A stretch of DNA of 64,000 bases. Source: Gemmobacter megaterium (lineage in GTDB: Bacteria > Pseudomonadota > Alphaproteobacteria > Rhodobacterales > Rhodobacteraceae). Where the stretch lies: positions 372,001 through 436,000 of the forward strand of contig NZ_FTOT01000003.1 of assembly GCF_900156815.1 (NCBI RefSeq). Reading direction: 5' to 3'. Position numbers and translations under genes: made by a program. The notes under the pieces were generated by a model, which was given only the letters and a program-made list of their open reading frames with translations, ran no database searches and was not told the origin of the DNA. Shown here in pieces: positions 25,287 through 61,148 of this stretch. Each line of letters opens with the position of its first letter. Within the stretch, counting starts at the first letter, position 1.

Positions 25287-25448
25287 GGCGGTCTCCTTCT
25301 GCATTTGCCCCAGCATCGCAGGAATGCACGCGATATGCTGCCGTCATGCAGGCAATTCCAGCAGGACCTGCGGCGAAACAGGGCGGAACGGCAGGAGTTT
25401 TCGGCCGAACCGATCCATCCTGCCAGAATGGCAACCAAGGAAAACACC

Positions 25449-42929: not shown

Positions 42930-43811
42930 ATGTCTCAGCACGATTCGATGGATCTCGACCATTATTCCATCACTGCGCGACCGCTGACGGACACCGACCT
43001 GCCACGCCTGCACGAACTGACGGTCGGGGTTGGCTGGCCCCATCGCACCGAAGATCTGCGCATGTTGATGACGCTGGCGCAGGGCTATGTCGCCTGCGAT
43101 GAAATCGGGCGCGTCAGCGGATCGGCCCTGTGGTTCCCGATGGGCGATCATGCGGCCAGCGTCGGGATGGTGATCACGACGCCCCGGATGCAATCGCGCG
43201 GGGCGGGGCGCTGGCTGATGGATCTGGTGCTGCGCGACGCAGGCGACCGGGAAATCGTGCTGAACGCCACTCCGCAGGGAGTGCGGCTGTATGAACAGCT
43301 TGGCTTTCAGACCTGTCAGATCGGCCATCAGCGACAGGGCGAAGCGATGGCCCCGCCACCGCCGCCGCCACTGCCCGGCCTGACCCTGCGCGCGATGGCG
43401 CCCGAGGACAGCCCTGCGATCCTGCGGCTGGATCGCGCGGCAACCGGACACCCGCGCGACGCCGCGCTGCACGAGATCCTGCCGCATTCCGAAGGCGTGG
43501 TCCTGCTGGATGCGACGGGCGGGATCGTGGGCCATGCCCTGTTGCGCACGTTCGGGCGCGGACAACTGATCGGGCCGCTGGCCGCCCGAAACGACGCCGA
43601 GGCAATTGCCCTGGCCAGCAGCCTGATCGCGGCCCATACCGGGCAATTCCTGCGCATCGACACACTGATGCTGAAAGGTCCGTTCGCGGATTTCCTCGAT
43701 CATTGCGGAATGCCGGTCGCCAGCACCATGACGCATATGTGGCTCAACCGCCGCCTGCGCGAACCGACCGGGCCGCGCAACTATGCAATGATCAGTCAGG
43801 CGCTGAACTAG
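42930..43811 (+). CDS. Tandem GNAT-domain acetyltransferase (second copy)
   Basis: 293 aa with two GNAT folds, preceded by GGGGAGGGG before ATG 42930. Domain 1 (about 10-145) contains the CoA loop MQSRGAGRWLMDLV and LYEQLGFQTCQIG; domain 2 (about 155-280) holds GQLIGPLAARNDAEAIALAS. The linker is a seven-proline run (residues about 142-150). The architecture and the C-terminal SQALN match the protein at 14668 (SQALC), so both belong to one small family found beside FAD oxidases and hyuAB here. The acceptor is unknown. Confidence 0.83.
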   Translation: MSQHDSMDLDHYSITARPLTDTDLPRLHELTVGVGWPHRTEDLRMLMTLAQGYVACDEIGRVSGSALWFPMGDHAASVGMVITTPRMQSRGAGRWLMDLVLRDAGDREIVLNATPQGVRLYEQLGFQTCQIGHQRQGEAMAPPPPPPLPGLTLRAMAPEDSPAILRLDRAATGHPRDAALHEILPHSEGVVLLDATGGIVGHALLRTFGRGQLIGPLAARNDAEAIALASSLIAAHTGQFLRIDTLMLKGPFADFLDHCGMPVASTMTHMWLNRRLREPTGPRNYAMISQALN

Positions 43812-43856: not shown

Positions 43857-44348
43857 CTAATCGTCGTCGCGTTCAAAGATCTGGCGCAGCGGCACCGGCT
43901 GGCGGCGGATCGGGGTCTTGATCACCACATAGCTGAAATACTGCGCAATGCCCGCATGATCGTCGGTCAGCGCCTCGATGATCGATTGGTAATGCGACAG
44001 GTCGCGCACCACGAAAGTGACCAGATAGTCGAAGCCGCCGCTGATCAGGTGGCACTCCACCACCTCGCGGAATTTGCGCAGGCGGGTTTCAAAGCGCTGA
44101 AAGCTCTCTGCCCGGTGCTTTTCCAGCGTCACCTCGACCAGAATCGTCAGGCTGTCCCCCAGCTTGCGCAGGTCCAGGTCGGCGGAATAGCCGGTGATGA
44201 ACCCCTCGGCCTGCAACCGCTTTACCCGCATCAGACAGGGCGAGGGCGACAGCCCCACGGCATCGGCCAACTGCGCATTGGTGATCCGCCCGTTCTGCTG
44301 CAACTGGGTCAGGATGTTCATGTCGATGCGGTCAAGTCGGGCGGCCAA
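43857..44348 (-). CDS. Lrp/AsnC-family regulator (TTG start)
   Basis: 163-aa feast/famine regulator: HTH at about 5-55 (LDRIDMNILTQLQQNGRITN, LSPSPCLMRVKRLQ) and an RAM/AsnC ligand domain from about 65. The start is a TTG with AAGGA eight bases upstream; an ATG further up is out of frame and the next internal Met would cut off the conserved LDRID. Such proteins sense amino acids and usually control a neighbour, here probably the divergent HAD gene 205 bp away. Confidence 0.9.
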   Translation of the reverse strand: MAARLDRIDMNILTQLQQNGRITNAQLADAVGLSPSPCLMRVKRLQAEGFITGYSADLDLRKLGDSLTILVEVTLEKHRAESFQRFETRLRKFREVVECHLISGGFDYLVTFVVRDLSHYQSIIEALTDDHAGIAQYFSYVVIKTPIRRQPVPLRQIFERDDD

Positions 44349-44553: not shown

Positions 44554-45222
44554 ATGGCCCAGTTCAGCCCGAAATACATCACCTTTGACTGCTACGGCAC
44601 GCTGACCAACTTCGACATGGCCGGCGGCGCCCGCATCGTCTATGGCGACCGCCTGTCGCCCGACCAGATGACCGCCTTCATCGAGAGCTTTCGCGGCTAC
44701 CGGATCGACGAAGTCCTCGGGCCGTGGAAGCCCTTCCGCGAGGTGGTCTGCAATGCGGTCGAGCGGTCGTGCAAGAAACACCGCATCCCCTATGATCGCG
44801 CCGATGGCGAACGGATCTATGCGATGGTGCCATCCTGGGGCCCGCACCCCGATGTAACCGAGGGCCTGTCGCGGATCGCCGACAAGATCCCGCTGGTGAT
44901 CCTGTCCAATGCCGCTAATGAACAGATCCACCACAATGTCGCGCTGCTGGGGGTTCCGTTCCACAAGGTGCTGACGGCCGAGGATGCCCAATCCTACAAG
45001 CCGCGCTATCGCGGATTCGAATACATGCTGGATACGCTGGGCTGTGGCCCCGAGGATATTCTGCACGTGTCCTCGTCGTTCCGGTATGATCTGATGACGG
45101 CCTATGATCTGGGCATCACATCCAAGGCCTGGGTCAACCGTGGCCATGAGCCTGCGAACCCGTTCTATGGCTATGCCGAGATTCCCGACACGCGCGGTCT
45201 TGCGGGACTTGTCGGGCTTTGA
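44554..45222 (+). CDS. HAD-superfamily hydrolase, type II 2-haloacid dehalogenase-like
   Basis: 222-aa HAD enzyme. Nucleophile Asp12 is in TFDCYGTLTNFD, with Thr16 following, the second motif is LVILSNAAN, the Lys motif is SYKPRYRGFEY, and HVSSSFRYDLMTAYDLGI holds the late acidic/Ser residues. Length and motifs fit the L-2-haloacid dehalogenase branch, but many members are phosphatases and the Arg that steers haloacids cannot be placed with certainty. A divergent Lrp gene suggests an amino-acid-linked inducer. Confidence 0.85.
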   Translation: MAQFSPKYITFDCYGTLTNFDMAGGARIVYGDRLSPDQMTAFIESFRGYRIDEVLGPWKPFREVVCNAVERSCKKHRIPYDRADGERIYAMVPSWGPHPDVTEGLSRIADKIPLVILSNAANEQIHHNVALLGVPFHKVLTAEDAQSYKPRYRGFEYMLDTLGCGPEDILHVSSSFRYDLMTAYDLGITSKAWVNRGHEPANPFYGYAEIPDTRGLAGLVGL

Positions 45223-45271: not shown

Positions 45272-46113
45272 TCAGTCCCAGCTTTCGACCCATGCCGGGC
45301 TGAACTGCCGCCCGTCAGGCCGGGCGAGGCCAGAAATCGCGGCCATGTCGGCATCGGTCAAGGTGAAACCGGCAAGGTCGATGTTCTGCGCCACCCGCGC
45401 GGGGTTGGACGACCGGGGAATGGCCACCGTACCTTGCTGGACATGCCAGCGCAGCACGATCTGCGCAGGCGTCCTGTCATGGCGTGCCGCGATGGTCGCC
45501 AACAGCGGATCATCCAGCAGGTTGCCGCTGCCGATGGGTGCATAGCCGACAAAGGCCACCCCGTGGCGACGGCAGGCCGCAATCAGCGCCGACTGGTCCA
45601 GCCGGGGATGATATTCACACTGGTTGGCCACCAGCGGCTCATCCGCCAATGCCACGGCATCCGCCAGGCGGCTTGCCGAAAAGTTGGACACGCCGATATG
45701 CCGCGCCAGCCCGTCACGCCTGGCCTGGCACAGCGCGCCGATGGTTTCCGCCAGCGGCACCGCCGGATTGGGCCAGTGGATCAGCAACAGATCGACCGGC
45801 CCGACGCCCAGCACTTGCACACTGCGCTCGGCGGAACGGCGGAACGGCGAAAGGCGTCGGCCGTCAGATCGGTGTGCCAAACCTTGGTGGTCAGAAAATA
45901 GCTGTCACGCGCCAGTCCGCTGGCCCGCAGCGCCGCGCCCACCTCCGCTTCGTTCTCGTAGCGCGGCGCGGTGTCGAAATGGCGATACCCTGCCGCAACC
46001 GCCGCCTGAACCGAGGCCGCAAGGACATCTCCGGCCAGTTGCCAGGTGCCCAGGCCGACGGGCGGGATTTGCGCGCCATTGGCGGCAACGGGGGTAAGCG
46101 CGGATTGCATCAT
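45272..46113 (-). pseudogene. Aldo/keto reductase disrupted by an 8-bp tandem duplication
   Basis: The sequence encodes an AKR of the DkgA/DkgB type split between two frames. The N-terminal part (46113 down to about 45846) has PPVGLGTWQLAGDV, GYRHFDTAPRYENEAEVG (catalytic Asp and Tyr) and FLTTKVWHTDL (Lys). The C-terminal part in another frame continues VDLLLIHWPNP (catalytic His), HIGVSNFSA, NQCEYHP, GYAPIGSG and IPRSSNPAR. Between them GGCGGAAC occurs twice in tandem (plus strand 45830-45837 and 45838-45845). Removing one copy restores one frame of 277 codons, the normal AKR length. The gene is therefore probably inactive unless this is a sequencing error. It is divergent from a LysR gene. 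Confidence 0.88.
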
Positions 46114-46239
46114 TGGTGTGATCCTCTGATCCGGGTTCCGGGCGGCGATCGTCCCGCCGCCCTTGTCAACGCCCCCGAAAGGAGGCCCAATTCAATCGCC
46201 CCGGCCCTTGCGTCGTGGCGCCATTGACAGGAGCACGTG

Positions 46240-47142
46240 ATGCGCGCGCGACAACTCGAGGTGTTCTGTATGCTGATGCGCAGCGGCACCGTGACAGGGG
46301 CAGCGGCGATGCTCAATATCTCGCAGCCTGCCCTCAGCCAGATTCTGCTTCATGCCGAGGATCAACTTGGCTTCAAGCTGTTCAACCGGGTGCGCGGCCG
46401 TCTGGTCGCCACGCAGGAAGCGGAAGAACTGTACCCCGAGGCAGAGCGGATCTTCTCCGAACTGGGCGCATTGCGGCGGCGCACACAGGACATGCGGTTC
46501 GGGCGCACCGGGCTGGTCCGGTTGGGGGCCTCTGCCCCGCCGGCCATGGCCATCGTTCCCAAGGCGTTGATGTCCTTCCGCGAAGCGCATCCCGACATCG
46601 TCGTAAGGTCGCTGATCGCACCCATGCTGAACGTGGTGGACATGCTGCGCACGGGCGAGATCTCGATGGGGATCGTCATGAACAACATGCCGCACCATGA
46701 TATCGAGGTGGAAACCGTGGGGCAGGTGGAACTGGTCTGCGTGATGCCCGACGGCCATGCACTGGCAACGCACGAGGTGATCGGCTTTGCCGATCTGGCG
46801 CAGGATACGCTGATCTCCTACCGGGCCGATACACTGCCTGCCCGCCTGTTGGCCAGCGCCGCCGAGGCAGAGGATCTGGACTTTGCGCCGGGGATCGAAA
46901 TCGACGTGTCGATGACCGCGCTTCCCTTTGTCCGCAGTGGGTTGGGGGTGGCGGTGGTGGACGGATTGCTGCCGTGGTCGGAATTTCCCGGCATCGTCTG
47001 CCGACCGCTTCGGCCCCGGATCACGGTGCCCATCGCGTTTCTGACGCACAAGAGCCGCCCGTTGACCGGCGGAACCGCGATGATGCGCGACTACCTCCGC
47101 ATGGCCTGCGCAACGGTGGGGCCGGCGATGCGCCGGGCCTGA
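46240..47142 (+). CDS. LysR-type transcriptional regulator
   Basis: 300-aa LTTR. ATG 46240 has AGGAG six bases upstream (a GTG precedes it directly). HTH at about 3-62: RARQLEVFCMLMRSGTVTGA, SQPALSQILLHAEDQLG. The effector domain follows from about 90, with SGLGVAVVDGLLPW near the end. It lies divergent from the broken aldo/keto reductase (126 bp between), the classic position for its regulator, and convergent with the HcnB-like operon. With the reductase broken, its remaining target may be elsewhere, for example the hyuA operon. Confidence 0.92.
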   Translation: MRARQLEVFCMLMRSGTVTGAAAMLNISQPALSQILLHAEDQLGFKLFNRVRGRLVATQEAEELYPEAERIFSELGALRRRTQDMRFGRTGLVRLGASAPPAMAIVPKALMSFREAHPDIVVRSLIAPMLNVVDMLRTGEISMGIVMNNMPHHDIEVETVGQVELVCVMPDGHALATHEVIGFADLAQDTLISYRADTLPARLLASAAEAEDLDFAPGIEIDVSMTALPFVRSGLGVAVVDGLLPWSEFPGIVCRPLRPRITVPIAFLTHKSRPLTGGTAMMRDYLRMACATVGPAMRRA

Positions 47143-47155: not shown

Positions 47156-48523
47156 TCAGCCTGACCCCCCGGACCGCGCCAAGGCACCCGCCAATACGGG
47201 CCGCACAGGCGCCTGATCGCGCAGGCGCCCCACCTGTGCGGGATCCGTGCCGGCATGGGCCGCGATCAGTTCCGCCGCCGCCAACTGGCAGAACCGGCCC
47301 TGGCAGCGCCCCATGCCGATACGTCCCAGCGACTTCACCCGGTTCGCATCGGCCCCGCCATGGTCCACCGTGGCGCGCAGCGTGCCCGCCGTGACACCTT
47401 CGCAGCGGCAGACCACAGCGGTATCTGGCAAACTGCGGACCATGGCCGCGGGCCAGGGAAAGGCGCGCGCCAGACCCTGGGCAAAGCGTTCCAGCCGGGC
47501 GAGCCGGGCCAGATCGGCGGCGATCTCGGGCGCGGGGCGGCCCATATCCGCCAGACAGGCGGCGGCGGCCAGACGACCCGCCACTTCTGCCCCGTCGGCC
47601 CCCAGAATGCGCAGGCCATCGCCCGCCAGATACACCCCCGGCCGCAACCGGCCCAGCCGGTCGGTGCGCGGCAGCCATTGGGCCCAGATTTCGCTATGGT
47701 CGAACTCTGCCCCGGCCAAGCCAGCCAACTGGGTTTCCGCCCGCAGATGCCACCCCATGCCCACCGTATCGCACAGGCTGCGCTTTCCCCGGCCAGAGGC
47801 ACTGGACCAACGCACCGCGACCGGCCCTCGTACATCGGTCTCGATCTCGTGCAATGTCACGCCCGCATGATAGCGCCGCCCCAGCCGTGCGCGCATCGAC
47901 AGCCCGCGCAGCGCAAGGGCAGGGCGCGCGAACATGGCAGGCAGGGCCGCGATCTGCGCCGACAGCGGGGCGGTGTCGAGCACCGCCTCGACCACAGCCC
48001 CGGCCCCGAGCATCTGATAGGCCACCAGCGTCAGCAGCGGCCCCGAACCCATCAGGACGACGCGCTGGCCCAATGCCACCCCCTGGGCCTTGAGCGCGAT
48101 CTGCGTGGCGCCCAGGCTGTAGACGCCGGGGGCCTGCCAGCCGGGCACCGGGGCAAGCCGGTCGGTGGCGCCGGTTGCAAGGATCAACTGATCATGGGCG
48201 ATCACCCGGCTGCCCTGCGGCCCCGTCACATGCGCCCCGGCGGTTGAAAATCCCAGGACCGCGCTTTGCGGCAGATGTTCCACCCGCCCTTCGGCCACCA
48301 GCCTGTCGAACACCCCATGCAGCGCGCGGGCCTTGGGGGCCTCGGGCCCGTAAAGCACCTCGGGCGGGCGGGTAAAGCCTTCGGGCGGGCGGCGGTAGAT
48401 CTGGCCCCCGGCCCGCGCACCTTCATCCACCACGACCGGCCGCAGCCCGGCTGCCACCAGCGTTTCGGCTGCCCGAATGCCCGCAGGCCCCGCCCCGACG
48501 ATCAGGATGCGCGGATCGGTCAT
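47156..48523 (-). CDS. HcnB/OoxA-like FAD/NAD(P)-binding dehydrogenase subunit with Fe-S domain
   Basis: 455-aa pyridine-nucleotide-type flavoprotein similar to the B subunit of cyanide synthase, opine oxidase subunit A and related proline/hydroxyproline dehydrogenases. ILIVGAGPAGIRAAETL (6-22) is the first dinucleotide fold, AGGQIYRR follows, and VVLMGSGPLLTLVAY is the second. The C-terminal BFD-like [2Fe-2S] domain has CRC (372, 374) and CQGRFC (407, 412). The start ATG 48523 overlaps the stop of the ferredoxin-like gene. It should pass electrons from the FAD oxidase subunit through the Fe-S proteins. The usual third subunit (HcnC-like) is found divergent at 53172. Confidence 0.9.
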   Translation of the reverse strand: MTDPRILIVGAGPAGIRAAETLVAAGLRPVVVDEGARAGGQIYRRPPEGFTRPPEVLYGPEAPKARALHGVFDRLVAEGRVEHLPQSAVLGFSTAGAHVTGPQGSRVIAHDQLILATGATDRLAPVPGWQAPGVYSLGATQIALKAQGVALGQRVVLMGSGPLLTLVAYQMLGAGAVVEAVLDTAPLSAQIAALPAMFARPALALRGLSMRARLGRRYHAGVTLHEIETDVRGPVAVRWSSASGRGKRSLCDTVGMGWHLRAETQLAGLAGAEFDHSEIWAQWLPRTDRLGRLRPGVYLAGDGLRILGADGAEVAGRLAAAACLADMGRPAPEIAADLARLARLERFAQGLARAFPWPAAMVRSLPDTAVVCRCEGVTAGTLRATVDHGGADANRVKSLGRIGMGRCQGRFCQLAAAELIAAHAGTDPAQVGRLRDQAPVRPVLAGALARSGGSG

Positions 48524-48834
48524 GGCCAGCTCTCTGGTGGATGTGTCAGCAGGCGCATTCCTTCGGCAATCGGGGTGGAACAGCCGCGCAGGCGGGCGCC
48601 ATCCTCTTGCCAGATCCAGCAATCCTGGCAGGCGCCCATCAGACAAAAACCTGCGCGCACTTCGGCCCCGAATTCCGACCAGCGCAGGACGGGGGCAACC
48701 GTCAGCACGGCGGTCAGCACGGTATCGCCCGCCATGCCGACCTGGGCCACGCCATCCAGCGTGAACGCCACAGAGGCGCGGCCCGTCTCGGCAAGGCGAT
48801 GAATGCGGCCCTTGGTCGGAAGCGGTGTGATCAT
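48520..48834 (-). CDS. HcnA-like [2Fe-2S] ferredoxin-fold subunit
   Basis: 104-aa small subunit of an HcnABC-type amino-acid dehydrogenase. Four cysteines, Cys64-x4-Cys69-x2-Cys72-x12-Cys85 (FCLMGACQDCW and GCSTP), match a plant-type [2Fe-2S] cluster with shortened spacing. Start and stop overlap both neighbours by four bases (hyuB before it, hcnB-like after it), so the Fe-S subunit is made in step with them. No signal peptide; cytoplasmic or peripheral to the membrane. Confidence 0.9.
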   Translation of the reverse strand: MITPLPTKGRIHRLAETGRASVAFTLDGVAQVGMAGDTVLTAVLTVAPVLRWSEFGAEVRAGFCLMGACQDCWIWQEDGARLRGCSTPIAEGMRLLTHPPESWP

Positions 48835-50816
48835 TCGGCAGCCTCTTGCAGGAACCCGGACGGGGCGGGCATATCGGGAAAGCGCGCGCGCACTTCGGCA
48901 AAAGCCAGTTCCACGCCCTTGGCCCCAGAACGCCCGGCCATGCGGCGGAATATCTCCGTCTTGGCAAAGAAACGCCAGTGGATCGGCAGGCCGCCCAGAA
49001 TTTCGGTCAGCAGATCATAGGCGGCGGGTGTCCATTGCGTCTCATAGCCCTCGCGCTCGGGGCCGTAGTGAAAGGGCTGTGTCGCGGGGGGCATCGTGGC
49101 GCGCAGCGCCGCCGTTGCCGCCTCGTCCACCACGCCATCCACGATCACCACGCCATAGTCGCGCGCCGCGGCCGGGACAGAGACATAGCCACGCGCCACG
49201 TCCTGCGCCACGCGCCACAGCTCGCGCTGAAGCGGATCGCCGCGCCCGCCGCCCCCGGCCGAGCGCACTTCAAGCACATCGCCGGGTTGCAGCACCGCCG
49301 TATCCACATTGCCCAGCCGCCGGGCCCGGTCGGTGCCGGGGTTCAGCCACATGTCGGACAGCCCCGCCGCCCGCCCGCCTAGCGCGCCCCAGGGACGAAA
49401 GAACGAACGGTCGCGGTTGCGCGCGGTGATCCGGCTGTCGGGGGCAAAGACGCGAAACGCCATTTCCGTCGCCAGCCCGCCACGCCAGCGGCCCGCCCCC
49501 CCGGTGTCCTGCGCCAGCGCATATTTCACGAATTCGACCGGCGTCTCGGTCTCGGTGATCTCGATGGGGGTGTTCTTGAGATAGGCCGCATCGGCACCCG
49601 ACCCGTTGGTGCCATCGCGGTGTGGCATTCCGCCACCGCCGCCGACCACCGGGTTCACCGCCGCAATGATGCTGCGCCCCCGCGCATCGGTCGTCATCAC
49701 ATTGACGATGCAATTGTTGCCCGCAGGGGCCGCAGGCAGCCGGTCGGGCAGCGCCTGCACAAAGCCGCCAAAGATCACCGAACGCAGCCGGGCGCAGGTC
49801 AATGACCGCATCCCCACGGCCGCCGGACTGACCGGATTCAGCACCGATCCCTGCGGCGCGATGCAGGTAAAGGGCCGCGTCAGGCCGGTGTTCAGCAGGA
49901 TCCGGGGGTTGAGCGTATAGAGAATGTAGTAGATCGCCACCAGCAACACCGAATGCCGCGGATCGCCCCCCGTCGGCACGTTCAACGATGACCCAAGCTG
50001 CGGATCCGACCCGGTAAAATCCAGCACCGCACTATCGCCGGCGATGGTCAGCTTCAGCTTCAACCGACAGGGATTGGCCTCGACCGAATCCTCGTCGGCG
50101 TAATCGGTGAAGTCCCATGTGCCATCGGGAATCGCGCGCAGCACGTCGCGCGCCTGCGCCTCGGCATGGTCCAGCAACTGGTCCACGCCTGCCAGGAACG
50201 CCGCCTTGCCGAACTTTTCCACCATGGCCAGGATCTTGCGCTCTCCGGTGGTCAGGGCCCCGACCATCGCCTTGATATCGCCCATGTTCAGATCGGGCTT
50301 GCGCACGTTGGTGGACATGATGCGCAGGATCTGGTCGTCATAGACCCCTTCGTTCATGATCTTCATGGGTGGAAAGCGGATGCCTTCCTGATGGATTTCC
50401 GTCAACGCCCGCGACAGCGAGGCAGGCACCGCACCCCCCATATCGGTGTTATGGATATGCCCGCCGGTAAAGGCGATAAGCTCGCCCTCATGGAACACCG
50501 GCTTCCACAGCACGGTATCGGGCGTGTGGGTCGCCACAAAGCTGGAATAGGCATCGTTGGTAAAGGCCACATCGCCGGGTTTGTAGTCGGCAATCTGGTC
50601 GATGGCGCGGCCAAAGGTCAGGCCGGCATACCAGGTGGCGCCCAGATCCATCGGCACGGCAAAAGTTTCGCCCCGCCGGTTCAGCAGCATGACCGTAAAG
50701 TCCTCGGTCTCCTTGACAAACGCGGAATGGGCGGTGCGTTGCAGGGTGTAGCCCATGTTCTCGGCGGCGGCCCGCGCATGGTTGGCCAGCACCTGAAGGT
50801 TCATCCGGTCGAACAT
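48831..50816 (-). CDS. hyuB: HyuB-type hydantoinase/oxoprolinase subunit B (second copy)
   Basis: 661-aa Hydantoinase_B protein. ATG 50816 has GGGAG seven bases upstream, just behind the hyuA stop. Motifs: YTLQRTAHSAFVKETEDFTV, FTNDAYSSFVATHTPD, HIHNTDMGGAVPASLSR, LDFTGSDPQLGSSLNVPTGG and GGGGGMPHRDGTNGSGA. It is clearly related to the 39925 copy but diverged. Its stop overlaps the start of the [2Fe-2S] gene, tying ring-opening hydrolysis to an amino-acid dehydrogenase. Confidence 0.93.
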   Translation of the reverse strand: MFDRMNLQVLANHARAAAENMGYTLQRTAHSAFVKETEDFTVMLLNRRGETFAVPMDLGATWYAGLTFGRAIDQIADYKPGDVAFTNDAYSSFVATHTPDTVLWKPVFHEGELIAFTGGHIHNTDMGGAVPASLSRALTEIHQEGIRFPPMKIMNEGVYDDQILRIMSTNVRKPDLNMGDIKAMVGALTTGERKILAMVEKFGKAAFLAGVDQLLDHAEAQARDVLRAIPDGTWDFTDYADEDSVEANPCRLKLKLTIAGDSAVLDFTGSDPQLGSSLNVPTGGDPRHSVLLVAIYYILYTLNPRILLNTGLTRPFTCIAPQGSVLNPVSPAAVGMRSLTCARLRSVIFGGFVQALPDRLPAAPAGNNCIVNVMTTDARGRSIIAAVNPVVGGGGGMPHRDGTNGSGADAAYLKNTPIEITETETPVEFVKYALAQDTGGAGRWRGGLATEMAFRVFAPDSRITARNRDRSFFRPWGALGGRAAGLSDMWLNPGTDRARRLGNVDTAVLQPGDVLEVRSAGGGGRGDPLQRELWRVAQDVARGYVSVPAAARDYGVVIVDGVVDEAATAALRATMPPATQPFHYGPEREGYETQWTPAAYDLLTEILGGLPIHWRFFAKTEIFRRMAGRSGAKGVELAFAEVRARFPDMPAPSGFLQEAAE

Positions 50817-50820
50817 CGGC

Positions 50821-52902
50821 TCACTCCCCAAAGGTCAGATACAGGTTCAGATGCCGGTCGACATGCGCCCGCGCCCCGGCCGGAATGGCCAGGGTGGTGT
50901 CATCCTGCGCCACGACGGCGGGGCCGGAGAATACCGCACCCGGCCCCAGATCGCGGCGGCGATACAGCCCGATGGGTTGCACGCGGCCCCCGGTATGCAC
51001 CGGCACATCGCGCCGGGGCCTTGCCTGCACCGCCACCTCCTCGGCCTCGGGAAACCGCAGGGCCGGACCCGCCCCGATAGCGGACAGGCGCAGGTTCACC
51101 AACTCGATCTCCCCTGCCGCGTCGTGAAAATCATACAGCCGGTCGTGCATGTCGTGAAACGCGGCGGCCATGCCCGACAGGTTCCCCTCGGCAATCCAGC
51201 CGGGCTGCAAGGGCACCTCGATCTCGTAGCTTTGCCCGGCATAGCGCATATCGGCCGACAGGCGCAGATCGGCGCCGCCGCGATGGCCCTGCGCGGCCAG
51301 CCAGCCCCGGCCCTCGTCCATCAGCCCGTCCATCGCGGCGCGCAACAGGGGGGCGGTGGCACTGTCCAGCGGGGCAAAGATCGTACGGATGAAATCGCCG
51401 CGCAGATCGGCAACCAAACCGCCAAGCGCCGACACCACACCGGGGCGACGCGGCGCCATCACGCGGCGCATCCCCATTTCCTGCGCCAAAAAGGCCCCCA
51501 GCATTGGCCCGCCGCCACCAAACGGCATCAGGGTGAACTCCCGCAGGTCAACGCCAGCGCGCGAAGCAAGCTTTTCCACCTCGACGAACATCTCTGAAAT
51601 CGCAATGTCCAGAATGGCTTGCGCGGTCTCTTGCAGGGGCCGGGCCAAGCGCCGGGCCAATTCGCCCACCGCGCGTTCGGCCAGCGCCCTGTCCATCTGC
51701 AACTGGCCATAGGCCATCTGACTGTGCCCCAGCCAGCCACAGACAACCATCGCATCCGTCACGGTCGCCTGCGTGCCGCCCCGACCATAGCAAGCGGGCC
51801 CCGGCGTCGATCCTGCCGAGTCCGGCCCGACGCGCAGCACACCGCGCTCGTCCACCTGCGCGATGGACCCGCCGCCGATCCCGATGGAACTGACCGAGAC
51901 CGAAGGGATAAACAGCGGAAACTCCCCGATCAGCTCACCCGTGCCGAACTGCGGCTCTCCGTCGATGATCAACGCGAAATCAGCCGAGGTGCCGCCGATA
52001 TCCAGCGTCAGCACCCGTGTCTCGCCAGCCTGACGCGCCAGCCAGGCGGCACCGATCACCCCCGATGCCGTGCCCGACAACAACATGTTGACGCAGGACC
52101 GCTTGCCTTCGGCGGCATTCATCAACCCGCCGTTGGATTTGGTCAGCATCGGCCGCGCAGGAACGCCCTGCCCCGCCAGCCTGTGCTCCAGCGCCGTCAG
52201 ATACCCCGCCACCCTGGGGTGAACATATCCGTTCAGGATTGCCGTTGTCGTCCGCTCGTACTCGCGGATCACCGGCCAGACCTCGGAAGAGGTAAAGACG
52301 AACATGTCAGGCGCGATCCGCGCGATTTCCTCCTTTACCGCAGCCTCTTGCGACCCATCGCGCCAGGCATGAAGCAGGGACACGATGATGCCCTGCGCCC
52401 CGCGCGCCCGTGCGCTGGCAACGGCACCGGCCAGCGCGGCCATGTCGGGTGCCACCGTCTCCCGGCCATCCGCCCGCAGGCGGGCCGGCATCCCGAACAC
52501 CCGGTCGCGCGGGATCAGTTGCTCCGGCCGGGCGCAGAACAGCGAATAGACTTCGGGCATCCGCAGGCGGGCCAGTTCGATCACATCCTCGAACCCCGCG
52601 TTGGTGATCAGCGCCAGATCCACACCCCGCCGCTGGATGATCGTATTGATCCCCACCGTCGTGCCATGGACAAACCGGCTGACCTGCGCGGGATCCAGCC
52701 CTTCGCGTTCGATCAGCAGGGAAAGGCCGGTCAGCAGTTCGGCACCGGGATCGTCCGGCGTGGTCAAAACCTTGAGCGACGCAACCCGCCCTGTCCGGGT
52801 CTCCAGCGCGCAGAAATCCATGAAGGTTCCGCCGATATCGACACCGATCTTCCAGTCGGCCTCTGCCGTGACTCTGGCCGTAGGGGTCATCGCGCCGTCC
52901 AT
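50821..52902 (-). CDS. hyuA: HyuA-type hydantoinase/oxoprolinase subunit A (second copy)
   Basis: 693-aa ATP-binding subunit. ATG 52902 has AAAGGG six bases upstream. IGVDIGGTFMDFCAL and FVHGTTVGINTIIQRRG lie in the N-terminal domain, LDIGGTSADFALI and DSAGSTPGPACYGRGGT in the actin-like core, and LSADMRYAGQSYEIE near the end. It heads the minus-strand order hyuA-hyuB-[2Fe-2S]-hcnB-like. A 17-bp perfect palindrome lies 78 bp upstream. The substrate is a cyclic amide or similar; 5-oxoproline, hydantoins and lactams are all possible. Confidence 0.93.
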   Translation of the reverse strand: MDGAMTPTARVTAEADWKIGVDIGGTFMDFCALETRTGRVASLKVLTTPDDPGAELLTGLSLLIEREGLDPAQVSRFVHGTTVGINTIIQRRGVDLALITNAGFEDVIELARLRMPEVYSLFCARPEQLIPRDRVFGMPARLRADGRETVAPDMAALAGAVASARARGAQGIIVSLLHAWRDGSQEAAVKEEIARIAPDMFVFTSSEVWPVIREYERTTTAILNGYVHPRVAGYLTALEHRLAGQGVPARPMLTKSNGGLMNAAEGKRSCVNMLLSGTASGVIGAAWLARQAGETRVLTLDIGGTSADFALIIDGEPQFGTGELIGEFPLFIPSVSVSSIGIGGGSIAQVDERGVLRVGPDSAGSTPGPACYGRGGTQATVTDAMVVCGWLGHSQMAYGQLQMDRALAERAVGELARRLARPLQETAQAILDIAISEMFVEVEKLASRAGVDLREFTLMPFGGGGPMLGAFLAQEMGMRRVMAPRRPGVVSALGGLVADLRGDFIRTIFAPLDSATAPLLRAAMDGLMDEGRGWLAAQGHRGGADLRLSADMRYAGQSYEIEVPLQPGWIAEGNLSGMAAAFHDMHDRLYDFHDAAGEIELVNLRLSAIGAGPALRFPEAEEVAVQARPRRDVPVHTGGRVQPIGLYRRRDLGPGAVFSGPAVVAQDDTTLAIPAGARAHVDRHLNLYLTFGE

Positions 52903-52979
52903 TCCATGCCCTTTCGAAACTCCGCCCCGACGCTGGCATGTCAGGACCGGAGGGGTCCAAGTCACAAACGGCGCCCCGA

Positions 52980-52996
52980 CATAAGCATTGCTTATG
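52980..52996. promoter_or_regulatory. 17-bp perfect palindrome with LysR-box features
   Basis: CATAAGCA-T-TGCTTATG, perfect over 8+1+8, with the T-N11-A signature of LysR-type sites. It lies in the 269-bp divergent region between hyuA (start 52902) and the FAD oxidase (start 53172). A degenerate version of the same geometry is at 33083-33099. Confidence 0.65.
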
Positions 52997-53171
52997 CAGG
53001 CGCCGACCGGGCCCGTCGCGCGCCTCGTCGCTGGTCCCACCCGAAGCATCCGGCAGCGGCAACCGGCGCCAGCGGCATAGGTGCACCTTATGGCCGGGCT
53101 GCGATCCAGTCCTTGCCTCTGGCCGCGCCCGCGATCAGGCTGGCGGCGAGAAACGAACCGGCGAGGGCAGG

Positions 53172-54284
53172 ATGAGCGCAATCGTGATCGGCGGCGGGCT
53201 GATGGGCAGCGCCAGCGCCTTTTTCCTGGCCCGCCGGGGGGTGCGCGTCACCCTGCTGGAACGCAACCGCATCGGAACCGGGGCGACCGTCGCCTCGTTC
53301 GGCAACATCCGGCGCACGGGACGGTTCCTGCCGCAGATGCCGCTGGCGCATCATTCGCGCGCGCTGTGGGCCGAAGCCGAGGCGCTGCTGGGCCGCGACG
53401 TCGAGTTTCGCGCGACCGGCCATCTCCGGCTGATCTTTGGCGACAAGGGCCTGGCCGACATGCGCCGCTTTCGCCAAGCGGCCCAGCCCTGGGGGCTGGA
53501 CATCGAGGAACTGGACGCGGCGCAGGTGCACCGCCGCTTTCCCGGCCTTGGGCCCGGCGCCATTGGTGCCTCGTTCTCCCCCCATGACGGCAGCGGCAAC
53601 CCGCGGCTGATCTCGCCCGCCTTTGCGACTGCCGCTGCCCGGCTGGGCGCAAATGTGGTCGAGGGGGCCGAGGTGCTGGACATCGCCGTCACCGATGCCG
53701 GCTTCCGGGTGCAGACCGCCCGCGGCAGTTTCACCGCGGCGCAGGTGCTGAACGCGGCCGGTGCGTGGGGTGGACGCCTTGCGGAACGGTTTGGCGAAAG
53801 GGTGCCGATCCGGCCGCATGGTCCACAGATGGGTGTCACCGAACCCCTGCCCCACCGCATCCTGCCCGTGGTCGGGGTCTGGGCCGAAACCGGGCACGGC
53901 GGCTATCTGCGGCAGGTGGAACGCGGCAACATCGTCTTTGGCGGCGGTGTGGCACGCACCGATGTGGATCTGGAGACCGGCCACGCGCAGTATGACCTTG
54001 CCGGTCTGCCCGCACAGCTTGCCAGCCTGATCCCGCTGTTCCCGGCGCTGGCCGGGGTCGCGGTGATCCGCACCTGGTCGGGCTGCGAAGGATATGTCGC
54101 CGATGACCTGCCGGTGATGGGTGCCTCTGCCACCACGCCGGGGCTGTTCCACGCCTTTGGCTTTTGCGGCCACGGCTTCCAGCTCGGGCCGGGCGTCGGC
54201 GATGTGATGGCCGAGATGATGGCCACCGGGCGGGGCCTGGTGCCACTCGACCCGTTCCGCATCGACCGCTTTCCGACAGGCTGA
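53172..54284 (+). CDS. HcnC/OoxB-like FAD-dependent amino-acid oxidase subunit
   Basis: 370-aa DAO-family flavoprotein like the catalytic subunit of HcnABC-type dehydrogenases and opine oxidases. MSAIVIGGGLMGSASAFFLARR at the very N-terminus is the FAD motif (the start is fixed by it), the acid is in VTLLERN, and ATVASFGNIRRTGR is the flavin-contact loop. The C-terminal FGFCGHGFQLGPGVGD is the second FAD element. It is divergent from the hyuAB/[2Fe-2S]/HcnB-like operon, so the three-subunit enzyme appears split over two transcripts. It probably oxidises the amino acid or opine-like product of HyuAB. Confidence 0.88.
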   Translation: MSAIVIGGGLMGSASAFFLARRGVRVTLLERNRIGTGATVASFGNIRRTGRFLPQMPLAHHSRALWAEAEALLGRDVEFRATGHLRLIFGDKGLADMRRFRQAAQPWGLDIEELDAAQVHRRFPGLGPGAIGASFSPHDGSGNPRLISPAFATAAARLGANVVEGAEVLDIAVTDAGFRVQTARGSFTAAQVLNAAGAWGGRLAERFGERVPIRPHGPQMGVTEPLPHRILPVVGVWAETGHGGYLRQVERGNIVFGGGVARTDVDLETGHAQYDLAGLPAQLASLIPLFPALAGVAVIRTWSGCEGYVADDLPVMGASATTPGLFHAFGFCGHGFQLGPGVGDVMAEMMATGRGLVPLDPFRIDRFPTG

Positions 54285-54297
54285 GCCACGCAAACGT

Positions 54298-55098
54298 TCA
54301 GCGGCGCACCTCGGGGCGCGGGACTGCTGCCAGCAGGCGCTGTGTGTAGGGGTCGCGGGTGGCTGCGAACAACTGGTCTGTAGGCCCCGCCTCGACGACA
54401 CGGCCCCGGTGCATGACGACGATCTCGTCAGAGATATGGCGGACGACCGACAGATCATGGCTGATGAACAGATAGGCCAAGCCCAGCCGCGCCTGCAATG
54501 CCAGCAGCAGGTTCAGGATCTGCGACTGGATCGAGACATCCAGCGCCGAGACCGCCTCGTCACAGACGATGACTTCGGGGTTCAGCGCCAATGCACGGGC
54601 TATGACGATACGCTGTTTCTGGCCGCCGGAAAATTCGCGCGGCAGCCGGTCAAGCGCCGAGGCAGGCAGGCCCACCAGATCCAGCAGTTCCTGCACGCGC
54701 GCCGCGCGGCTGGCAGCGGTGCCGATGCGGTGGATTTCCAGCGGTTCGGCAATGCAATCGCGCACCCTCATGCGCGGATTCAGCGCCGAGGCCGGATCCT
54801 GGAACACGATCTGCAACCGCCGCGTCACGGCCCGCGCCTCGGCGGCGGTCATGGTAGCGCGGTCCTTGCCGTCAATCAGCACCTGACCGGCGGTCGGCGT
54901 TTCCATTCCCATCACCGCATAGCCGGTGGTGGATTTTCCGCTGCCGGATTCACCCACGATGGCCACCGTGCGACCGGGGTAAAGGTCAAAGCTGACACCA
55001 TCCACCGCGCGAACGTGGTCGGTCACACGCCCCAGCACGCCGCCCCGGATCGGGAAATGCACCTTCAGGTCACGGACAGAAACAATGGGGGTGGTCAT
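54298..55098 (-). CDS. Peptide-type ABC transporter ATPase (DppF-like)
   Basis: 266-aa ATPase with GESGSGKSTTG (Walker A), QDPASALNPRMRV, FSGGQKQRIVIARAL (signature) and CDEAVSALD (Walker B). It is shorter than most DppF proteins because the C-terminal oligo_HPY tail is nearly absent, ending soon after DPYTQRLLAAVP. ATG 55098 overlaps the stop of the preceding ATPase. It is the last gene of the nine-gene minus-strand operon. Confidence 0.92.
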   Translation of the reverse strand: MTTPIVSVRDLKVHFPIRGGVLGRVTDHVRAVDGVSFDLYPGRTVAIVGESGSGKSTTGYAVMGMETPTAGQVLIDGKDRATMTAAEARAVTRRLQIVFQDPASALNPRMRVRDCIAEPLEIHRIGTAASRAARVQELLDLVGLPASALDRLPREFSGGQKQRIVIARALALNPEVIVCDEAVSALDVSIQSQILNLLLALQARLGLAYLFISHDLSVVRHISDEIVVMHRGRVVEAGPTDQLFAATRDPYTQRLLAAVPRPEVRR

Positions 55099-56081
55099 GG
55101 CGCAAGCTCCGTCTCGATCCGGTCGCGGTTCCAGCAGGCGCTGGCATGGCCGGGACTGCCCGAAGGTTCCAGCAGAGGCACCGCGCTGCGGCACTGCTCG
55201 GTGGCCAGCGGGCAGCGAGTGTTGAACCGGCACCCCTTTGGCCAGCTCCGAATATCGGGCACAGCGCCGGGAATGGCAGGCAGCGGCACCTTGCGCGTGC
55301 CATCCAGCCGGGGGATCGTGCGCAGGAGCATAGTGGTATAGGGGTGGCGCGGCCGGGCGAACACCTGCGCCACCGGCCCGGTTTCCACCACGCGCCCGGC
55401 ATACATCACCGCCACACGGTCGGCGCTTTCGGCCACCACGCCCATGTCATGGGTGATCAGCATCACCGCCGCCCCGGTGTCGTGCCGCATCTTGGCCATC
55501 AGGTCCAGAATCTGCTTCTGGATCGTCACGTCCAGTGCCGTGGTCGGTTCATCGGCGATCAGCAGAACGGGGCGGCGGATCATCGTCATGGCAATCATGA
55601 TCCGCTGGCACATGCCGCCCGAAAGTTCGAACGGATACTGCCGCGCCCGCAACTCGGGCCGGTCAATGCCCACACGCTCCAGCATCTCCAGCATCCGGGG
55701 CTGCACCTCGGCTGTGGGAACCGCACCGTCCAGCGCCAGCGCCTCGGCGATCTGTTTGCCGACGGGCATCAACGGATCCAACGAGGCGACGGGCTCCTGA
55801 AAGATCATGCCGATCCGCGCCCCGCGCAATCCGTTCATCCGGCGTTCCGGCAGCGTGTCGATCCGCGCGCCTTCCAGCATCACCTGCCCGGTGGTCTGGC
55901 GCGCGACATCAGGCAGCAAGCGGATGATGCCCAGCGAGGCCATGCTTTTGCCGCAGCCGGATTCACCGACCACGGCCAGCGTCTCGCCCGCCGCAATGTC
56001 GAATGTCACGCCATCGACCACCGGCTGTCCGGCGATCTCAACGCGCAGATCCTGCACCGACAGGACGGGCGGGGTGGTCAT
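55095..56081 (-). CDS. Peptide-type ABC transporter ATPase (DppD-like)
   Basis: 328-aa ATPase: GESGCGKSM (Walker A), FQEPVASLDPLMPVG, LSGGMCQRIMIAMT (signature with Cys in place of the usual Arg), ADEPTTALD (Walker B), and an oligo_HPY tail with CRFNTRCPLA. It overlaps both neighbours by four bases (GGT-family gene before, DppF-like after). It works with the permeases at 59334 and 60167, which are separated from it by three enzyme genes in the same operon. Confidence 0.92.
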   Translation of the reverse strand: MTTPPVLSVQDLRVEIAGQPVVDGVTFDIAAGETLAVVGESGCGKSMASLGIIRLLPDVARQTTGQVMLEGARIDTLPERRMNGLRGARIGMIFQEPVASLDPLMPVGKQIAEALALDGAVPTAEVQPRMLEMLERVGIDRPELRARQYPFELSGGMCQRIMIAMTMIRRPVLLIADEPTTALDVTIQKQILDLMAKMRHDTGAAVMLITHDMGVVAESADRVAVMYAGRVVETGPVAQVFARPRHPYTTMLLRTIPRLDGTRKVPLPAIPGAVPDIRSWPKGCRFNTRCPLATEQCRSAVPLLEPSGSPGHASACWNRDRIETELAP

Positions 56082-57634
56082 GGTGTGGCCTCCTCGGCGG
56101 GAACGGCGGCAGACCAGGGGTGATTGGGATGCACCATGCCGTGCAGCGTACCATCGGGGCGGCGTTCCACCGCGCTGGGTATGGCGAACTGCACCGGATA
56201 CAGCAGGTCATCCACCAGTTCGACATCATGCGCACGACCGATCAGCCCGGCAGTGCCATCGGGCAGGCGGCGGTCCAGCACGATCCGCGGCCCCGAAGCA
56301 TCCAGCCGCGGATGCGACAGCGCCTGGCCCAGATCCATCCGATGCAGCAGACGATAGGCCAGCAGTTGCACCAGCGCGGGCATGATCTGCCGCCCGCCCG
56401 CCGCCCCGATGGCCAGCGTCCCGCCCTGCGACAGTTCGGCCACCACCGGGCACATGTTGGCCAGCGGCTGGGCGCCGGGCGCCATCGAATTGGGCTGGCC
56501 GGGGCGCGGATCGAACCACATCATACCGTTGTTCAGCAACATGCCGGTGCGCGCTCCCGTCACCTTGGAGCCAAAGCGCGACAACAGCGTATTGGTCAGC
56601 GATACTGCATTGCCGTGCCGGTCGATCACGCTGACATGCGTGGTGCAGCCGGGGTCGATGCCCGCCCGCGAGGCGGCATGGCCCGCAGTATTGAGGCGCG
56701 TGGCATAGGCCGCCCGGATCGCATCGGCCACCTGGGCGTGATGGCGCGCATCGGCACGGTCGTTTGCCCCGATCCGCCCCAGCGCATCCAGCAGCGCAGG
56801 CCCTCCCGACAGGCCCGGCATGGCCAGGATCCGCGCGCCCGCCCAGTCGAGTTCCAGCGGCACCCCCCAGCTTGGCCGATAGACGGCCAGATCTTCCAGC
56901 GTCATGCGACCGCCCAGGTCGGCCATGTCAGCGATCAGATCGCGCGCGATCTGGCCGGTATAGAAATCTGCCGCCCCCGCCAGCGCCAAGCGGCGCAGCG
57001 TTGCAGGCTTGGCGCCCAGCGGCAGGCGCACCTCGGCCCCCGTCCCGCCAACGGCGGGCGCGCGGCCATCGCGCAGCAGCATCGCCGCAGACACCGGATC
57101 GGTCAGCAGGTTGGGCGCGTCAATCGACAGGCACAGATTGGTGAACCAATCCACCATCAGGCCCTTGTCAGCCTCTGCAATCGCGGGGTCCAGCGCCTCG
57201 GCCCAACTGATCGTGCCATGGGTCGCCAACGCCTCTGACAAGCCGGCGATGGCGCCGGGCACACAGATGGAATGCACGCCGATCAGATTGCGCTGACCTT
57301 CGACCTGAGGCCAGTCGAACCAGTCGCCATCCTTGCCGGGCACCAGCGGATAATCTTGCGGATTCAGCCCCAGCGGCGCCCGCATCGCAAAATCCAGCGA
57401 CCGCGCCTGCCCCGTCGCGCCATCGCGCCAGATCAGAAAACCACCGCCGCCAATGCCGCTGAGCCAGGGCTCGACCACCGACAACACCAGCGCCGTGGTG
57501 ACAGCCGCGTCCATCGCATTGCCGCCACGCGCCAGCACGGCGGCCCCCGCCTGTGCCGCGACCTTGTGCTGCGCGGCAACCATGCCACCCGCGCCCTGCG
57601 CCATGACCTTGCCGGGAGTCCAGGTAGAGGTCAT
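56078..57634 (-). CDS. Gamma-glutamyltransferase-family Ntn-hydrolase, cytoplasmic
   Basis: 518-aa Ntn-hydrolase of the GGT family, made as a precursor that cleaves itself before Thr331 (CTTHVSVIDRHGNAVSLT), the new N-terminal nucleophile. GNAMDAAVTTALVLSVVEPWLSG is the large-subunit hallmark and AAGGRQIMPALVQ replaces the usual GSPGG-type late motif. There is no signal peptide, unlike periplasmic GGT. The block that in E. coli GGT reads DFRE (glutamyl-binding Arg) is DFAMRAP here, so the gamma-glutamyl carboxylate may not be the ligand. It could act as another acylase or amidase on an imported compound. Confidence 0.87.
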   Translation of the reverse strand: MTSTWTPGKVMAQGAGGMVAAQHKVAAQAGAAVLARGGNAMDAAVTTALVLSVVEPWLSGIGGGGFLIWRDGATGQARSLDFAMRAPLGLNPQDYPLVPGKDGDWFDWPQVEGQRNLIGVHSICVPGAIAGLSEALATHGTISWAEALDPAIAEADKGLMVDWFTNLCLSIDAPNLLTDPVSAAMLLRDGRAPAVGGTGAEVRLPLGAKPATLRRLALAGAADFYTGQIARDLIADMADLGGRMTLEDLAVYRPSWGVPLELDWAGARILAMPGLSGGPALLDALGRIGANDRADARHHAQVADAIRAAYATRLNTAGHAASRAGIDPGCTTHVSVIDRHGNAVSLTNTLLSRFGSKVTGARTGMLLNNGMMWFDPRPGQPNSMAPGAQPLANMCPVVAELSQGGTLAIGAAGGRQIMPALVQLLAYRLLHRMDLGQALSHPRLDASGPRIVLDRRLPDGTAGLIGRAHDVELVDDLLYPVQFAIPSAVERRPDGTLHGMVHPNHPWSAAVPAEEATP

Positions 57635-58512
57635 GCAATCGGTCCTTTCGGCAGATGGGCAGCCAGATCTTCGAGCCCGGAATGGGCGACAAAACGCCCG
57701 GAATTGGTGGCGCGGTGCCAGTCGGCAATCTGAGCAGCGGTGGCGGCCCAGACATCCGCCTGCGCCGCGATATGTGACAACAGACGCTCCAGCATGGCGA
57801 CCCGCTGCGCGCGGCCAGAAATCCAGGGATGCACCGTCACCATGAACAACTGGCCATGGTGGCGGCCCGCCTCGAATTCATCCAGCCAGCCCTGCCCCAC
57901 CTGCGCAGCAGGCACGGGGGGCCATTTGTCGGCGCCGCCACCAAAGAACTTGAAATAGATCGCATCGTCGATCTGCCACTGCACCGGAATCTCGGTCATG
58001 CCGTCGATGTCATAGGGATGATCCCAACCCATCAGCGAGCTGTCATAGCCGATCCCCCGCACCATCAATGCCGCCAGCATCCCCGGTGTCATTTCCCATG
58101 CTGGCGAGCGAAACCCGACCGGGCGCAACCCGACCTGGGCGTGGAACACCTCCAGCGCGCGGTCGAGCGCGGCCTCGAACATCTCTTGCGGGCACTCGGC
58201 CACCAGCTCGTGCAGATGACCATGCAGGCCCACCTCGTGCCCCCGCCCGACCAGCGCGGGCAGGATCTCGGGGTGCAGTTCCGCCACGACCGATGGCACG
58301 TAGAAGCTGCCGCGAATTCCCACCCGGTCCAGCATGTCCAGAATGCGCCACAGTCCTTCACGCGGGCCAAAGCGGCGCTGTTCCAACTGGCCCAGCGTCG
58401 GCGGCAGCCCGGCGCGGTGCTGCCACAGCCAGGGCGCCTCGGCATCGACATCCACGCTGAAACACAGCGCGGACCGTTTGCCCTCGGGCCAAGTATACGC
58501 AGGCCGGTCCAT
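57631..58512 (-). CDS. NodB-fold deacetylase/PuuE-like amidohydrolase
   Basis: 293-aa polysaccharide-deacetylase (CE4) fold protein without signal peptide, so probably not a cell-wall enzyme. It resembles the PuuE allantoinase/cyclic-imide hydrolase branch, which opens cyclic C-N bonds. Acidic motif SVDVDAEA (Asp21, Asp23), HEVGLHGHLHE (His97, His99, His101), FRSPAWEMTPGML and VTVHPWISGRAQR are present. ATG 58512 has AAGG upstream and shares one base with the SDR stop; a GTG one codon earlier is also possible. Together with the GGT-family gene it suggests two-step hydrolysis of an imported amide. Confidence 0.85.
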   Translation of the reverse strand: MDRPAYTWPEGKRSALCFSVDVDAEAPWLWQHRAGLPPTLGQLEQRRFGPREGLWRILDMLDRVGIRGSFYVPSVVAELHPEILPALVGRGHEVGLHGHLHELVAECPQEMFEAALDRALEVFHAQVGLRPVGFRSPAWEMTPGMLAALMVRGIGYDSSLMGWDHPYDIDGMTEIPVQWQIDDAIYFKFFGGGADKWPPVPAAQVGQGWLDEFEAGRHHGQLFMVTVHPWISGRAQRVAMLERLLSHIAAQADVWAATAAQIADWHRATNSGRFVAHSGLEDLAAHLPKGPIA

Positions 58513-59312: not shown

Positions 59313-59333
59313 GGCTTTGGCCCTTTCAACAGG

Positions 59334-61093: not shown

Positions 61094-61115
61094 GCCATGG
61101 GCTCCGGTCAAAGGG

Positions 61116-61141
61116 GCGCGCGCCCGGTCAGGGGCGCGCGC
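61116..61141 (-). promoter_or_regulatory. Intercistronic hairpin after binding-protein gene
   Basis: GCGCGCGCCC-GGTCAG-GGGCGCGCGC, a 10-bp perfect stem within ten bases after the binding-protein stop on the minus strand, without U-tract. Confidence 0.65.
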
Positions 61142-61148
61142 GGGCCGG

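Follow-up and report, generated by a model that had tools for sequence, protein, structure and literature searches.

Within a 64,000-nucleotide stretch of the Gemmobacter megaterium genome (contig NZ_FTOT01000003.1, positions 372,001 to 436,000; hereafter the window), five genes encode a HyuAB-type lactamase/hydantoinase and a three-subunit flavin dehydrogenase. Based on their gene content, their motifs and a linkage to a catabolic island that is conserved in relatives, we somewhat favour the view that these genes form a two-step module, in which a lactam would be opened and the resulting opine-like secondary amine oxidised, and which would act as an optional, accessory front end to the island. 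Four of the genes form a single operon on the minus strand, encoding the HyuA-like subunit of an ATP-dependent lactamase/hydantoinase (50821..52902; 693 residues; Pfam Hydant_A_N, Hydantoinase_A and Hydant_A_C), the HyuB-like subunit (48831..50816; 661 residues; Hydantoinase_B), a small [2Fe-2S] protein, the gamma subunit (48520..48834; 104 residues; Fer2_4), and the alpha subunit, an HcnB/NoxA-like flavoprotein with a C-terminal BFD [2Fe-2S] site (47156..48523; 455 residues; Pyr_redox_2, Fer2_BFD and SO_alpha_A3). The beta subunit, an HcnC/L-proline dehydrogenase-like flavoprotein (53172..54284; 370 residues; Pfam DAO), is encoded on the plus strand, divergent from hyuA, and the coordinates suggest that the intervening 52903..53171 is a shared control region. 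ATGA overlaps are seen at both the hyuB/[2Fe-2S] and the [2Fe-2S]/hcnB junctions, while the hyuA stop and the hyuB ATG are separated by four bases and do not overlap. Coordinates and Pfam domains thus bear out a preliminary description of this DNA, which had placed all five genes here, linked the [2Fe-2S] and HcnB-like genes to hyuAB by four-base overlaps, and drawn the HcnC-like FAD subunit as divergent.

The same description had suggested searching genomes for this arrangement, and had seen its uniqueness to one genome as a potential objection. Genome contigs were scanned for similarity to HyuB only, and the best 80 of 156 matches were kept (77-85% identity): these named loci come from rhizobia, Azospirillum, Bosea, Rhodobacterales and others, and represent a close clade around the window HyuB, not the superfamily. 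Four plasmid loci were added to give 84, onto which the window proteins were mapped by tblastn (at least 40% identity and half length). The arrangement was found across the 80 named loci, and the objection proved false: gene order and divergent orientation are unchanged in 82/84 loci, L109 being rearranged. HyuA, HyuB, the [2Fe-2S] protein and HcnB are present in 80/80 HyuB-picked loci (84/84 with the plasmid loci) and HcnC in 79/80 (83/84), the sole miss being L112, a contig of 6.8 kb that stops short of HcnC. The hyuB/[2Fe-2S] ATGA overlap is retained in 78 of 82 relatives, and in a plasmid collection HyuB, HcnB and HcnC each retrieve, at 60% identity or more, an identical set of 23 plasmid records. 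Since HyuB alone served to pick the 80 loci, and every one of them has genes for HyuA, the [2Fe-2S] protein and HcnB as well, the co-occurrence of the core genes is not due to chance. This invariant coupling in 84 loci makes probable the functional link, also put forward in the preliminary description, between ring opening by HyuAB and amine oxidation by the flavoenzyme. In one Neorhizobium galegae plasmid (L036, CP090555.1) HyuB, HcnC and the HAD hydrolase described below match piecewise, as if broken or mis-sequenced; its gene table, incomplete by design, has no entry for HyuA or HyuB.

Membership of the predicted dehydrogenase in the three-subunit flavin amine dehydrogenases (OpnDH / D-HypDH / HCN synthase / L-ProDH) is supported by the agreement of subunit genes, motifs and nearest structures. 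Genes for alpha, beta and gamma subunits are all present at the locus, with beta divergent. A signature motif set for the flavin opine dehydrogenase and its kin is given in the available excerpt of PMC4575208, which also places type-2 opine dehydrogenases close to L-proline dehydrogenase. The gamma subunit carries CX4CX2CX12C at residue 64, fitting the family definition CX4CX2CX11-12C in that excerpt. The alpha subunit has GXGXXG and a C-terminal cysteine motif, CXCX32CX4C, which is found in 84/84 relatives; its spacing lies outside the CXC-X15~20-CX4C printed there, as does the X33 of its alpha-type counterpart on the nopaline Ti plasmid pTi2788 (L120). In the beta subunit we found GXGXXG and an RxW FMN site (RTW) at 300, both invariant in a 17-row alignment, with RxWSG in 83/83 relatives. 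By sequence, its best match in the PDB is L-proline dehydrogenase (1y56_B, 3e-39), against 3e-12 for the solved flavin opine dehydrogenase 7fgp; its predicted model (pLDDT 87) likewise has fold Z 44.7 to 1y56_B, tied with glycine oxidase 4ysh at 44.1, while 7fgp comes only at rank 41 (Z 38.1).

These comparisons bear on whether, as on Ti plasmids, the substrates are the classic opines nopaline and octopine and the lactams derived from them. On the nopaline Ti plasmid HyuAB is divergent from noxBCA-type genes, and the LysR-type regulator convergent with the window operon (46237..47142, plus strand) is a relative of OccR, which ranks third by E-value among its PDB relatives (1e-10, across the effector domain). 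However, the window alpha, beta and HyuA proteins are just 32%, 30% and 37% identical to their Ti plasmid counterparts, and beta is closer to L-proline dehydrogenase than to 7fgp in both sequence and fold, making this explanation quite improbable.

For the first enzyme, both Hydantoinase_A and Hydantoinase_B subunits of the HyuAB superfamily, a family that opens lactams with ATP, are present. Its best NCBIfam match is the caprolactamase CapAB, but identity with the CapAB equivalogs was rejected: the subunits score 407 and 237 bits, and each cut-off is 1000. The closest PDB match of HyuA is an N-methylhydantoinase (7hk5, 2e-115), and sarcosine oxidase is among the relatives of the dehydrogenase, as one would expect if HyuAB opened hydantoin or N-methylhydantoin and a sarcosine derivative were oxidised at once, an example offered in the preliminary description. 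We found this proposal unsupported and regard it as highly improbable: the window genes scanned, a part of the total, include no hydantoin racemase or creatinine-pathway gene, the M20 protein at 34774-35694 is of the acetylornithine deacetylase type (over the NCBIfam cut-off), and the conserved island points away from hydantoins. An oxoproline-like substrate, also proposed earlier, fared little differently. Salvage of 5-oxoproline and glutathione would suit a dipeptide-type transporter and the adjacent gamma-glutamyltransferase-like gene (56078-57634; under the NCBIfam cut-off), but the latter does not recur at 40% identity or more in the 84 relatives, and the P. jessenii caprolactamase of the HyuAB family does not use 5-oxoproline according to the excerpt of PMC6061476. 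Such salvage is therefore very unlikely.

Pairing of HyuAB with flavin dehydrogenases extends beyond the window clade. On pTi2788, noxB-C-A-type genes, annotated by general family names, are divergent from HyuA-HyuB, with genes for LysR and for nopaline transport alongside; HyuAB is preceded by a DAO gene both in Pantoea and on another Ti plasmid. The window's own genome holds a second operon, HyuA-HyuB-aldehyde dehydrogenase-gamma-alpha-beta-aminotransferase (L172; G000:C18:70000-89999, 6420-16065), which is far diverged, its HyuB being 32% identical. A third alpha-beta-gamma locus of this genome (L174, G000:C27:448203-449564) adjoins a pot-type transporter, and the 19 kb read there contain no HyuAB. 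Trees were built for HyuA (22 rows) and for the alpha subunit (29 rows); in them the paired members, namely those of the window clade, of a Paraburkholderia plasmid (PREW-6R), of L172 and of the Ti plasmid, fall in separate places, although long branches leave L172, L173 and L120 in the HyuA tree, and L120 in the alpha tree, unsurely placed. Since paired members lie in separate branches, the pairing has probably been assembled several times.

The preliminary description had missed the setting of the module: around the core lie a recurring pathway and a HAD that resembles azetidine hydrolase. The HAD hydrolase (44554..45222, plus strand) has L-azetidine-2-carboxylate hydrolase as its best sequence match (31% identity over 214 columns), scoring 86 bits to 3smv, 35-44 to epoxysuccinate hydrolases, 40 to the type-II dehalogenase 3um9 and about 25-32 to the classical L-2-haloacid dehalogenases 1jud, 1qq5 and 2no4. 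The fold ranking of its predicted model (pLDDT 90) is topped by 8hp7, described as trapped with (2R)-4-amino-2-hydroxybutanoic acid. Plain haloacid dehalogenase and cis-epoxysuccinate hydrolase, considered as alternatives, are weaker by sequence, and the fold does not separate them. Another HAD subfamily, here called rhizobial-type, lies behind the Opp operon in 19/80 loci as fetched and in the plasmid locus L036; for its representative in L059, the match to 3smv reaches 137 bits, against 40 for the next family. The sequence comparisons thus favour an azetidine-hydrolase-like identity, with the window HAD nearest to, and the rhizobial HAD clearly matching, L-azetidine-2-carboxylate hydrolase.

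The rhizobial-type HAD follows the core closely. It is encoded on the core's contig in 40/40 further core genomes, none of which had shown this HAD in the stretch fetched before (the search left aside the remaining 19 of the 80), at a distance of 10.0-20.5 kb in 39 and 84 kb in one; Tistlia (L040) has it too. At E 1e-70 it was detected in 0/385 class-sample genomes, the window's own included, by the same query that detects it in core genomes. Across 151 genomes of one rhizobial family, 17 have the HAD and 8 the core HyuB: the HAD occurs in 8/8 core genomes versus 9/143 others, or, excluding three of the 8 that were already among the 40, in 5/5 (Fisher p 4e-6). In seven of the eight it lies within 12.4 kb of the core, and in one 419 kb away. 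All nine HAD-only genomes carry parts or all of the island. The window-type HAD (E 1e-45) occurs in 9 class genomes other than the window's own, six of which also encode an alpha subunit, compared with 24/384 overall (hypergeometric 2e-6); in three of these six, HAD and alpha lie within 12 kb.

Other components recur as well. Relatives share an Opp transporter, amine oxidases, an aminotransferase, and semialdehyde and tartrate/D-malate dehydrogenases, and the window holds the same families between 13317 and 45222. The window genes that recur most often after the core are two regulators and an amine oxidoreductase: by locus, and at 40% identity or more, homologues of the LysR regulator were found in 71/84 relatives, and those of an Lrp/AsnC-type regulator (43857..44321, minus strand) and of the DAO-family amine oxidoreductase DAO2 (13317..14645, minus strand) in 65/84 each. 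In Paraburkholderia L128, transporter, HyuAB, aldehyde dehydrogenase, HAD, DAO and gamma-alpha-beta all run in one direction. Loci of Acidovorax (from duckweed), Massilia, Sphingobium and Novosphingobium, whose alpha subunits are about 51-56% identical to that of the window and which have no HyuAB in the stretch read, hold subsets of HAD, DAO4, aldehyde dehydrogenase, GhrA, aminotransferase, GNAT and Opp transporter.

From these data we infer catalysis, step order and substrate as follows. HyuAB would open a lactam using ATP, and the alpha-beta-gamma flavoenzyme would oxidise the freed, carboxylate-bearing secondary amine of the opine-like product, passing electrons on via FAD, FMN and [2Fe-2S]; the fragments would then be processed by the remaining island enzymes, namely the flavin amine oxidases, HAD, aminotransferase and dehydrogenases. 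The ligand described for 8hp7, 4-amino-2-hydroxybutanoate, would by the expected chemistry yield D-malate after transamination and oxidation, a route that matches three window proteins: a class-III aminotransferase-like protein (AT3; 33270..34646, minus strand; PRK05965 family, over cut-off), a succinate-semialdehyde dehydrogenase family member (SSADH; 25449..26903, plus strand; TIGR01780, over cut-off) and a tartrate dehydrogenase family member (24243..25316, minus strand; TIGR02089, over cut-off), a family that we take to accept D-malate.

The most likely substrate class, in our view, is that of N-(carboxyalkyl) amino acids able to close to a gamma-lactam. Nicotianamine contains azetidine-2-carboxylate and a secondary amine with a 3-amino-3-carboxypropyl arm, and this arm could close to a putative gamma-lactam. 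Because of the azetidine and the lactam-capable arm, nicotianamine-type azetidine metallophores appear to match the island best within the class, and better than hydantoins, 5-oxoproline or pyrrolidones. Polyamine- or GABA (gamma-aminobutyrate)-type, pyrrolidone-like lactams oxidised to succinate semialdehyde would account for the SSADH and for a gene set (29074-32957) whose sequence led us to label it a spermidine/putrescine-type (pot) transporter, and the published N-methylpyrrolidone pathway reportedly follows a similar logic. The pot-type genes, however, recur in just 1-3 of 84 loci, and such a substrate would leave the azetidine-hydrolase-type HAD and the tartrate/D-malate dehydrogenase unexplained; we consider it unlikely. 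More tentatively, and as a possibility that we ourselves doubt, island and module together might enable bacteria to break down nicotianamine and phytosiderophores related to it: a metallophore-type transporter would import the compound, HyuAB would open its gamma-lactam, flavin dehydrogenases would cut the two inter-unit C-N bonds, and the HAD would open the azetidine ring, with products draining to D-malate, aspartate and pyruvate.

Several observations weigh against an azetidine pathway fronted by this module. The window HAD shares only the 31% identity noted above with the azetidine hydrolase, and its fold ties azetidine hydrolases with true L-2-haloacid dehalogenases (Z 25.5 vs 25.2). The rhizobial-type HAD was not detected at E 1e-15 in the window genome or in Szabonella (L039), which has the nearest HyuB (85%). 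Among the nine class genomes with a window-type HAD, three lack alpha at the cut-off used and three have it far off or on another contig. Relatives' Opp genes are only about 22-40% identical to the window Opp set (18910-24169), and are of the same kind but not demonstrably the same transporter. Several carriers are marine Rhodobacterales. None of the nine HAD-only genomes of the rhizobial family has HyuAB or the dehydrogenase in the 14-19 kb read, which indicates that the island does not need the module. Lastly, the class sample yielded 28 alpha-subunit homologue hits in 25 genomes (of 385, at E 1e-70), and HyuAB was found in 0/12 stretches around these distant homologues (12 fetched of 25 non-own hits). 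This last result, and the HyuAB2-type clusters that occur with no dehydrogenase in the stretch read, would also be expected if HyuAB and the dehydrogenase acted on different substrates and were merely co-regulated; such an arrangement is rather unlikely, as coupling and overlap are invariant within the clade and the pairing recurs in separate tree branches.

The window holds further genes of note. A second HyuAB pair, HyuA2 (37891..39921) and HyuB2 (39925..41868; G000:C18:411931-413862; 50% identical to the first HyuB), lies on the plus strand, accompanied by DAO, GNAT and LysR genes: DAO4, a DAO-family amine oxidoreductase that neighbours the HAD in other genomes (36150..37349), an adjoining GNAT acetyltransferase (37346..37804), and an adjoining LysR-like regulator, labelled from its sequence and a LysR-annotated homologue (41929..42801), all on the plus strand. 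On a Paracoccus denitrificans plasmid, an HyuAB2-like cluster occurs with ArgE, aldehyde dehydrogenase, tartrate dehydrogenase, SSADH, HAD and cupin genes, and no three-subunit dehydrogenase was seen in the 22 kb read. Next in the window comes a two-domain GNAT acetyltransferase (42948..43811, plus strand), which has no PDB relative at 0.001, so that the hoped-for azetidine acetyltransferase was not found, and, beyond the HAD, a partial call of an aldo/keto-reductase-like gene (45272..45820, minus strand; labelled from sequence). At lower coordinates lie a GhrA-like 2-hydroxyacid dehydrogenase (15659..16585, minus strand), the Opp-type ABC transporter set of ATPase, binding protein and two permeases (18910..24169, plus strand), an aldehyde dehydrogenase (26966..28429, minus strand), a Cupin_3 protein (28682..29035, plus strand) and the ArgE-like M20 deacylase (34774..35694, minus strand). 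The latter is one of three M20-family deacylases in the 64 kb, the others being at 3801-4967 and 12104-13264. PDB matches of the binding protein (20622-22232) are spread over many family-5 proteins, with 8efz best, then AppA and NikA, and later AgaA, nickel-binding proteins and AccA; as they do not discriminate, we rejected a substrate assignment from them. A rhizobial binding protein scores 136 bits to the NikA model, whose cut-off is 600. On the far side of the module, an Opp-type transporter operon also encodes an SDR, a polysaccharide-deacetylase-like protein and the gamma-glutamyltransferase-like protein (54298..62633, minus strand); the deacetylase-like protein has some similarity to the allantoinase PuuE, far under the cut-off. 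Paroceanicella profunda has a similar set, in which SDR, deacetylase-like and Opp genes follow directly on a HyuAB pair.

Whatever the substrate, the five genes make up a conserved, predicted unit for lactam opening and amine oxidation that seems to have been assembled more than once; they are also a non-Ti counterpart to the HyuAB genes that were noted in 2019 next to opine genes. Its island context is the more interesting result, making the question of phytosiderophore catabolism genes testable. In the available excerpt of PMC7786132, transporters and enzymes for mugineic acids, and hence phytosiderophore degradation by a rhizosphere bacterium, are inferred for P. fluorescens SBW25. We found no paper naming bacterial nicotianamine or phytosiderophore catabolic genes among open-licence papers, subscription journals being mostly outside this coverage. 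If the phytosiderophore proposal were true, this gene set, which is widespread in rhizobia, Azospirillum, Burkholderiales and marine Rhodobacterales, would give direct access to the competition for iron carriers of plants.

Among the closest known systems is the noc region of pTi2788, where a three-subunit flavin dehydrogenase is directly divergent from HyuA-HyuB, with LysR genes nearby and the same chemical logic of oxidation and presumed lactam opening. It differs in the low identities given above, in keeping its three dehydrogenase genes together and HyuAB alone, and in having nopaline transporter and arginase genes; the 26 kb fetched contain no azetidine-hydrolase-type HAD match. The preliminary description's statement that no named system has this exact composition consequently stands for the exact operon, but not for the pairing, given these noxBCA-type genes divergent from HyuAB. 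The succinamopine (sac) region of pTiEU6, compared by description only, also has a Nox-like three-subunit dehydrogenase, LysR and HyuAB, with HyuAB apart from the dehydrogenase genes and beside an asparaginase; in the excerpt of PMC6733357 (2019), its authors propose that HyuAB opens lactam opines. An account of agropinic acid with hydantoin genes was not found among open-licence papers. OdhABC, as far as the excerpt of PMC4575208 describes it, shares the subunit types, motifs and RxW site, and its reported C-A-B order matches gamma before alpha here; in the window, beta is separate and divergent, and gamma is linked by overlap to HyuAB. CapAB (excerpt of PMC6061476) shares the HyuA/HyuB architecture and is the best NCBIfam match, with bits far under the equivalog cut-offs. 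The azetidine hydrolase 3smv has AESLYHD before the last Asp, where the window HAD has SSSFRYD. The fungal AzhA pathway includes NgnA, which we take to be a GNAT-type acetyltransferase. Besides the HAD itself, the acetyltransferase and the GABA-like downstream steps of that pathway have parallels in the island, which has many more genes than the pathway in the excerpt of PMC8016842. Taken together, the concept of ring opening and oxidation by these families is already in print, in view of the Ti plasmid pairing and the 2019 proposal on lactam opines; what is new is the genomic setting of the module, a recurring island with an azetidine-hydrolase-like HAD.

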